The notes below the pieces were generated by a model. The model saw only the letters and a list, made by a program, of their open reading frames with translations. It did no database searches and was not told the DNA's origin. Of a stretch of 64,000 nucleotides of DNA, positions 31,517-33,464 are shown in pieces. Position numbers and translations under genes: made by a program. Source of the stretch: Halodesulfurarchaeum formicicum. Its GTDB lineage: Archaea; Halobacteriota; Halobacteria; Halobacteriales; Halobacteriaceae. The stretch's first letter is position 1. Every line of letters begins with the position of its first letter. The stretch is from positions 1,240,001 through 1,304,000 of the forward strand of contig NZ_CP016804.1 of NCBI RefSeq assembly GCF_001886955.1, in the 5' to 3' direction.

Positions 31517-31522
31517 TTTATC
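31517..31522 (+). promoter_or_regulatory. TATA box of the 7TM/ATP-grasp operon
   Basis: ATTTAT ends 23 bases before the ATG at 31546, in an AT-rich patch unlike the surrounding DNA; predicts a leaderless transcript. Confidence 0.55.
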
Positions 31523-31545
31523 TTATGTGAACGCGTACTGACCTT

Positions 31546-33213
31546 ATGGATAGCCAACAATCACGCCGGCTGACGTTCGCGGGAATCCTGCTCGTATTCC
31601 TGGTCTTCGCGTTGGTCCTGAGCTGGCAGTTCGAGCGGTTGGCTCCGACCGTCATAGAGAACTACGTCTTCTTGCAACTCGCGGTTGCCGCCACGATCAT
31701 CGCCCTGTTTCGCTCGGAGGTCGGGTTCTCGACGTTCGGGGTCTTCGGGCCGACGATCATCGCGTTTGCCTGGATTCAGGTCGGGCCCTACTGGGGGCTG
31801 ATCTTGATCACGTATCTCTTCGTGATCGCGATCGCGATCCGTGATCTCATCGAACCGCTGAACCTCACGACACCCCATCGGGTGGCGACGGTGCTCCTGG
31901 TAGTCGTCTTCGGACTCCTCGTCCTCGGCGGCGTGAGCCACACCCAGCCGACGCTCCCGCAGTTTGGCTACTCGCTTTTCTTCCCGGCCATCCTGACGGC
32001 CTGGTACGGCGACCGCTTCGTCAACGAACTCCACGACGCCGGCTGGGTGCCCGTCCTCGAACGGCTGCTCCTGACCGTCGTCGTGATCTCGCTGGCCTTT
32101 ACCGTCGTCACGTACGAGCCGTTCATGAACTGGTTCGCTCGGACCCCCACAGCCTGGATCCTGCTGGTCGGGATCAATCTCTACCTGGGATCGGTCACAA
32201 CAGTCCGACTTAGTGAACGGCTTCGCTTTCGCAACCTGCTCCAAAAATTCGAGCCGAACGGGAATGGCTGGCTGGCAGTGCTGACCCTCTCCGTGCGCAA
32301 CCGGGACTTCGTCGAGCGCTACAACCCAGCCCAGCTACTGGCGCGGCTGGACAAAGTAGTCGTGAAACAGCTCCTGCACGGCCTGGAGATCCCGACACCG
32401 GCCACCTACGCCCATCTCCGGTCCGCCGACGACCTCGACGCGGTCGATTCGCTCCTGGAGGATCACGCGGAGTTCGTCGTCAAGCCGGCCACCAGTCTCG
32501 GCGGCGAGGGGATCCTCGTGGTCACCGGGCGACGCGAGGACGGCCGGTTCGAAACCTCAGACGGGCCACTGGAGGGAGCGGAGATTCGCGCCCACGCGAG
32601 GGACATTCTCGAAGGCCGCTACGAGGTCGCCTACGAATCGACCGGCGAAGCCTATCTCGAGGCGCTCGTCCACCCGGCGGGTATCCTCAGTGAGACGGCC
32701 GGAACAGGAGTCCCGGACGTCCGGGTCATTCTTCTCAAAGGAGTCCCGATCATGGCAATGGCCCGACTGCCCACTCGGGAGTCACGCGGGCGAGCAAACC
32801 TCCACGGCGGCGCCCTCGCGGTCGGACTCGATCTGGAGACGGGGCACGCGACAGGGGCCTTCCAGCAGACACGCCGTCGCTGGTTGGCCACGCACCCCGA
32901 TACGGGCCGCCCCATCGACGCCATCGAGATTCCAGATTGGGAGCAGGTGCTCACACTCGCCTCCCGAGCCGCACTCACCACCCATCTCGGCTACGCCGGC
33001 GTCGACGTCGTCTTCGATCGGGAGGGGCCACTCGTCCTCGAAGTGAATCGGCGACCCGGCCTTGGCATCCAGAACGCCACGATGGATGGGCTCCTACGCC
33101 GGCTTCGGTACGCCGAAGCACACCTCGAACCACTCGCAAACGAACCCGCAGCGAGCCGCGTGCGAGCGGGACTCGAGTTTGCACGGGCGGACTGGGGAGG
33201 TGTGCCACAATGA
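31546..33213 (+). CDS. 7TM domain fused to RimK-like ATP-grasp ligase
   Basis: 555 residues. Residues about 1-225 hold seven helices; the stretch FFPAILTAWYGDRFVNELHD resembles the 7TM domain (PF14402-like) usually attached to an inactive transglutaminase. Residues about 245-545 are an ATP-grasp domain of the alpha-L-glutamate-ligase-related type: VVKPATSLGGEGI, DVRVILLKGVPIMAMARLP, and the metal-binding end VLEVNRRPGLGIQNA. In proteobacteria I know these as separate neighbouring genes with an aspartyl-type protease; here two are fused and no protease is near. A membrane-bound amide- or peptide-bond-forming ligase is inferred. Confidence 0.8.
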   Translation: MDSQQSRRLTFAGILLVFLVFALVLSWQFERLAPTVIENYVFLQLAVAATIIALFRSEVGFSTFGVFGPTIIAFAWIQVGPYWGLILITYLFVIAIAIRDLIEPLNLTTPHRVATVLLVVVFGLLVLGGVSHTQPTLPQFGYSLFFPAILTAWYGDRFVNELHDAGWVPVLERLLLTVVVISLAFTVVTYEPFMNWFARTPTAWILLVGINLYLGSVTTVRLSERLRFRNLLQKFEPNGNGWLAVLTLSVRNRDFVERYNPAQLLARLDKVVVKQLLHGLEIPTPATYAHLRSADDLDAVDSLLEDHAEFVVKPATSLGGEGILVVTGRREDGRFETSDGPLEGAEIRAHARDILEGRYEVAYESTGEAYLEALVHPAGILSETAGTGVPDVRVILLKGVPIMAMARLPTRESRGRANLHGGALAVGLDLETGHATGAFQQTRRRWLATHPDTGRPIDAIEIPDWEQVLTLASRAALTTHLGYAGVDVVFDREGPLVLEVNRRPGLGIQNATMDGLLRRLRYAEAHLEPLANEPAASRVRAGLEFARADWGGVPQ

Positions 33214-33464
33214 AGGGTGGTTTCGTGTCCCGGCTGGTCGCTCTAGCCGTGTTGCTCTGGGTCCCGTCGATACTCGTCGTCTACCCACCCCAGCCAGTCG
33301 GCGGTTATTTCGGGCTCTCCCGGTCGATCGCTATCGAGGCGTTCTTCGTCGGCGTCCTGGTGACGTTTTTCTCCTATCTCCTCTTCCAGGTCTATCGCTA
33401 CTACCTGCTGGGCGAACCGACGGACCTGGATCACTTCGAGTCGACGGGGGATCGCGCCCCCTGA
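33210..33464 (+). CDS. Small two-helix membrane protein, partner of the ATP-grasp fusion
   Basis: 84 residues, two hydrophobic segments (VALAVLLWVPSILVVY and FFVGVLVTFFSYLLFQVYRY) and a short acidic tail. No family recognised. The start overlaps the stop of the ATP-grasp gene (ATGA), implying coupled translation and a shared role at the membrane. Its stop abuts the convergent MgtC stop exactly (TGATCA). Confidence 0.65.
   Translation: MKGGFVSRLVALAVLLWVPSILVVYPPQPVGGYFGLSRSIAIEAFFVGVLVTFFSYLLFQVYRYYLLGEPTDLDHFESTGDRAP

Follow-up and report, generated by a model that had tools for sequence, protein, structure and literature searches.

The window analysed here is a 64,000-nucleotide stretch of the 2.09-Mb complete genome of Halodesulfurarchaeum formicicum, a haloarchaeon of the same family as Halobacterium. 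On its forward strand, positions 31546..33213 encode a protein of 555 residues that joins a membrane domain to an ATP-grasp ligase. A possible archaeal TATA-like element, TTTATCTT, read directly in the sequence, lies on the same strand at 31517..31524. It is 22-29 nucleotides upstream of the start codon, a spacing that would fit a leaderless transcript. The stop codon of the fusion overlaps the ATG of a second forward-strand gene (33210..33464), which encodes a small membrane protein of 84 residues with two hydrophobic segments by hydropathy. The ATGA overlap described in the earlier note is confirmed; the second start codon begins at 33210, inside the stop codon.

The N-terminal membrane domain (residues 1-240, 31546..32265) carries the Pfam domain 7TM_transglut (PF14402), which matches residues 41-231 with an E-value of 4.9e-20 and 72.5 bits, spanning profile positions 58-247 of 248. 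The ligase domain (residues 251-521, 32296..33108) matches ATPgrasp_ST (PF14397) with an E-value of 4e-57 and 194 bits. Both scores are above the curated cut-offs of 25 and 31.4 bits. The top NCBIfam match is TIGR02291 (rimK_rel_E_lig, RimK-related glutamate ligase); its score of 251.8 bits is below the cut-off of 314.2, which makes the protein a relative placed outside the family by NCBI's rule. Neither the inactive transglutaminase domain PF14400 nor PF01841 matches the fusion in Pfam, while the positive control, Aeromonas RloB, is recovered. The RloB model NF052267 reaches 45 bits against a cut-off of 900, through the 7TM part only. Among the four neighbouring genes scanned, three before and one after, there is no protease or transglutaminase. 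The earlier note had described a 7TM domain of the transglutaminase-associated type and a RimK-related ATP-grasp ligase in one protein, with neither a transglutaminase nor a protease nearby, and these results bear it out. It had named absent domain matches or lost metal- and ATP-binding residues as grounds for giving up the idea; both domains match and the residues are kept. The bacterial trio that it linked to the protein, an ATP-grasp protein, an inactive transglutaminase-7TM protein and a pepsin-like protease, corresponds to RloABC, named and given phenotypes in work on the Pseudomonas aeruginosa rloABC operon (PMC12239564).

The ligase and its membrane domain

An alignment compared the ligase with nine relatives, which come from haloarchaea, another archaeon, Gammaproteobacteria, Bacteroidota and Patescibacteria. 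The active-site positions K313-P314, D391-x-R393, R407, N418-L-H, D487 and E499-x-N501 are kept. Positions equivalent to the residues with which RimK binds ATP and metal do not vary across the alignment, with K313, D487, E499 and N501 forming the ATP/Mg-binding set. The D...E-x-N metal site coincides with that of RimK in profile alignments to its crystal structures, as do the D-x-R and N-L-H motifs, and a sequence search against solved structures was led by RimK, cyanophycin synthetase and tubulin polyglutamylases. The structure prediction that the earlier note had proposed gave a usable ligase: an AlphaFold model built on an alignment of four sequences only (from the window and loci L032 and L033) has pLDDT values mostly of 60-92, fair to good, for the core at residues about 270-500. 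Foldseek returned RimK (5zct, a poly-alpha-glutamate synthetase) as the first solved match to this part, with ArgX and LysX also among the best. The membrane part of the model is unreliable (pLDDT about 40), and a fold search with it is therefore not interpretable. Since RimK-type residues are conserved and both fold and sequence matches point to such enzymes, joining an amino acid through an amide bond is well supported as the predicted chemistry, and a membrane-bound system that forms amide bonds, as first suggested for this gene, is the best reading of the fusion.

It is improbable that the acceptor is instead a small molecule or a lipid-linked precursor, such as a dipeptide-like metabolite or an envelope glycolipid, with the 7TM domain serving as carrier or flippase. 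In favour of this idea, the name of PF14397 refers to ATP-grasp enzymes associated with sugar transfer, and other haloarchaeal proteins of this type, two of them so annotated, make up a separate set with weaker scores. Against it, the ligase domain of the fusion lies nearest by sequence to the TIGR02291/RloC branch. By inspection, no glycosyltransferase or lipid genes are seen immediately next to the intact fusions of haloarchaea.

Hydropathy and the low-confidence model indicate about eight hydrophobic segments in the membrane domain, including an extra first helix (residues ~9-27) that precedes the PF14402 region. The topology prediction is N-in/C-in. With the N-terminus placed inside, lysine and arginine account for 50 of 311 residues in the 'in' loops and 9 of 209 in the 'out' loops of five haloarchaeal proteins. 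By this positive-inside count, the ATP-grasp ligase is predicted to sit in the cytosol. A transglutaminase-like or PKD domain can precede the 7TM domain in bacteria; the haloarchaeal form has a short loop only.

The two-helix partner and the spread of the fusion

The fusion occurs beyond this genome. Full-length copies were found in five of the 146 genomes of the order (G000, which holds the window, G063, G050, G027 and G105), together with a 190-residue ligase remnant in G052, and a wider search added G435, giving six intact haloarchaeal copies. Expressed by phylum, four of 393 sampled genomes carry the fusion, and two further copies come from the order-level search. The window copy is 42-48% identical to the other haloarchaeal fusions. 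The ligase-domain tree unites the five distinct sequences from haloarchaea in one clade with 100/100 support, so that a single origin of the fusion in haloarchaea fits this sample. A scan of genome contigs gave two relatives only, and viral contigs and phages gave none. A second, separate fusion is present in Bacteroidota, where a protein of 756 residues (L130:3036-5303) combines an N-terminal region, the 7TM domain and the ATP-grasp domain.

The survey of archaeal gene neighbourhoods, another step that the earlier note had asked for, shows that each of these sparse haloarchaeal copies is followed by a small open reading frame. The scan took every frame of at least 150 residues at six haloarchaeal loci and in the window, and looked for an overlapping downstream frame of 55-110 residues that has two membrane segments. 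It was positive for eight of 282: the six intact fusions, of which two (L040 and L043) are near-identical copies, the decayed fusion at L042, and one further frame, so that among the remaining frames of the same loci only 1 of about 275 has such a neighbour. The claim that the small membrane gene is coupled to the fusion thus gains from the comparison. The description of its product as novel stands in one respect, in that no Pfam or NCBIfam model matches the 84-residue protein (best 0.079), and needs correction in another, as counterparts by position and topology lie behind every haloarchaeal fusion examined. Because these copies align weakly, with 20-23% identity to the window copy, their kinship rests on position and topology. 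We take the small gene to be a constant companion of the fusion, most simply a subunit.

The fusion and small gene of Halobacterium sp. DL1 (G027) are plasmid-borne. A 2,384-bp cassette with only the fusion and the small frame (L040:7534-9917 and L043:7159-9542) is 99.9% identical between this genome and G435, members of different haloarchaeal families. The L040 cassette adjoins transposase genes and a 27-nucleotide repeat, and the G027 segment ends near repeats resembling insertion sequences. This near-identity points to a recent transfer in which the two genes moved together. One might ask whether the fusion is a decaying or silent accessory of mobile elements, with no current function. The sparse distribution, the transposase neighbours in one relative and the decayed copy in G052 agree with such a history, but we consider it very unlikely: the window copy is intact, it still has its active-site residues at 42-48% identity to the other haloarchaeal copies, and the small frame is retained in every case.

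The membrane domain and ligase as a pair in bacteria

Outside the haloarchaea, a 7TM gene followed by an RloC-type ligase gene is found in Aeromonas, Legionella, Bacteroidota and an archaeon, and in Patescibacteria. Of the 287 genomes sampled from that phylum, which includes the metagenome-assembled genome behind L033, 86 have PF14402 (about 30%), compared with five of 393 in the phylum of the window and seven of 296 in that of Gilvibacter. These very small genomes extend a family described as 96% proteobacterial (PMC12239564), although that figure refers to RloB orthologues and the Patescibacteria count to the 7TM domain alone. Of 83 Patescibacteria genomes examined for adjacency, three had a contig end after the 7TM gene and were left out. 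In all of the remaining 80 the ligase gene comes directly after the 7TM gene; two of these exceeded the spacing limit of the script only because stop-to-stop frames overlap, and were counted as adjacent. The adjacency in 80 of 80 genomes and the repeated fusions therefore suggest that 7TM domain and ligase share a reaction, and the natural fusion of RloB-RloC type indicates that the two form one working unit.

The surroundings of the pair vary. Among 28 Patescibacteria ligases, 12 carry a C-terminal retropepsin of the RimB/RloA family and nine a MATCAP metallopeptidase. Fewer than 60 residues precede the 7TM domain in 27 of 95 Patescibacteria loci (12 genomes counted twice), so that some, like the window protein, have no large extracytoplasmic domain. 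These loci differ from the window in that the two genes are separate and, in many, several further RimK-like ATP-grasp genes lie downstream. Across the sequences compared, the 7TM domain and the ligase are the conserved core, and peptidases and extracytoplasmic domains interchangeable additions.

Several details of these loci are recorded here. The arrangement of 7TM_transglut and RloC-type ligase, often with a fused retropepsin, is seen in L109-L128, L135-L143 and L158-L193. The protein at L110:5455-7797 and eight similar ones fuse the ligase to a MATCAP-type peptidase of family PF08014, that of the eukaryotic tubulin tyrosine carboxypeptidase, and such a chain recalls the tubulin tail cycle. 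One Patescibacteria genome, G472, contains two 7TM and ATP-grasp pairs (L071 and L072). In three Bacteroidota, a conserved single-helix frame of 61-66 residues lies near the ligase gene and close to a gene for an outer-membrane-like protein (L131:6414-6614, L132:6538-6723 and L133:6488-6685).

In P. aeruginosa, loss of the three secreted RloA proteases causes sensitivity to hypo-osmotic conditions, and deletion of rloB or rloC removes the defect (PMC12239564). RloA cleaves polyglutamate in vitro; no genome-encoded substrate was found, and the authors allow for either polyglutamylated proteins or free polyglutamate (PMC12239564). Because loss of rloB or rloC rescues the protease mutants and RloA cleaves polyglutamate (PMC12239564), the simplest reading is that an acidic chain, produced by RloB and RloC, arrives in the periplasm. 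The window protein shares with RloB-RloC the pairing of a 7TM_transglut domain with a TIGR02291-type ligase predicted to be cytosolic. It differs in being a single chain without the periplasmic domain PF14400, in having no secreted retropepsin gene at its locus, and in the extra two-helix protein. The sole retropepsin (PF05618) match in the genome is distant from the fusion and is itself a protein of 488 residues with an N-terminal RimK-type ATP-grasp and a C-terminal retropepsin (L157:707-2173; G000:C1:571706-573172). PF05618 proteins of similar size occur in other haloarchaea, with or without the fusion.

The main rival to a polymer-making enzyme is a membrane-tethered modifier that extends membrane or cytosolic proteins at the C-terminus with tails of amino acids, with no export; the 7TM domain and small protein would only position the ligase and recruit the target. 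RimK, a soluble enzyme that lacks a membrane domain but with which the window protein shares the ATP-grasp fold, the catalytic residues and probably the ligation chemistry, modifies RpsF (ribosomal protein S6) in this manner (PMC12239564). The retropepsin or MATCAP domains on the cytosolic Patescibacteria ligases could undo a protein tail, as RimB does, and fit this idea equally well. Against it, 13 positions of the 7TM domain are invariant across haloarchaea and bacteria, which exceeds what a simple anchor would need. In Pseudomonas, moreover, the opposing protease is secreted (PMC12239564). We regard the tethered modifier as a fair possibility, though the less probable of the two.

A proposed role for the fusion

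We propose, with a probability of about one half, that the window protein is a minimal single-chain core of the RloB-RloC type: a membrane-held ligase that builds an acidic peptide. In this core the 7TM domain would be the acceptor or conduit, and the small protein a subunit. The 7TM domain would hold the ligase at the cytoplasmic face of the membrane, where ATP-driven amide bonds would add residues to a growing peptide, most likely glutamate or similar acidic residues, as in RimK chemistry. The 7TM domain would take the chain and probably pass it to, or keep it at, the outer face, with the 84-residue protein as a stoichiometric subunit. We infer the glutamate building block, chain formation, translocation and the role of the small protein, and the reading as a whole is extended by analogy from the Pseudomonas Rlo pathway. 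Against export, the window protein has neither of the two features that suggest it in Pseudomonas, an extracytoplasmic domain and a secreted protease encoded nearby, and the peptidases fused to cytosolic ligases in Patescibacteria would place product editing inside the cell there.

With its 84-residue partner, the single polypeptide provides a compact system for biochemical work. As one chain that has a constant two-helix partner and neither transglutaminase nor protease, the fusion is new as far as the surveyed literature goes, setting aside the survey of Iyer et al. (2009), which is said to describe such amidoligase systems. The domain families and their association were already known; the Pseudomonas work dealt with a secreted protease that cleaves polyglutamate, and the fusion bears on the roles of the other two components, RloB and RloC (PMC12239564).

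A more speculative extension, which we think doubtful, is that the 7TM domain is the conduit for the product, so that 7TM and ATP-grasp proteins would make up a second widespread class of poly-amino-acid synthase-exporters, analogous to PgsB-PgsC. If true, the class would span Pseudomonadota, Bacteroidota, Patescibacteria and archaea, with the haloarchaeal fusion and its two-helix subunit as the smallest form. The likeness to the poly-gamma-glutamate synthase PgsB-PgsC (CapB-CapC) is one of logic only, an ATP-dependent amide ligase with a small multi-helix membrane protein making an acidic poly-amino acid; PgsB is another, Mur-ligase kind of enzyme. Against a conduit, the 7TM domain has no detectable relation to this known one in the comparison with PgsC/CapC.

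That comparison started from a resemblance seen by eye. In hhalign, the 7TM and CapC profiles gave P values of 0.012-0.039 with the motifs in the expected register, and CapC outscored a handful of other membrane-protein clusters; an equal or better score came from two of 40 CapC profiles shuffled in blocks, and the similarity is not significant. PF14102 (PgsC/CapC) has no Pfam match in the 7TM domain, there is no CapC in the genome of the window, and neither the 7TM domain nor CapC has a solved structure. We treat the kinship as an unproven lead. The haloarchaeal CapC proteins seen in this comparison (L046, L047, L050 and similar loci) are tandem duplications, with two units in about 390 residues, whereas the bacterial form has a single unit.
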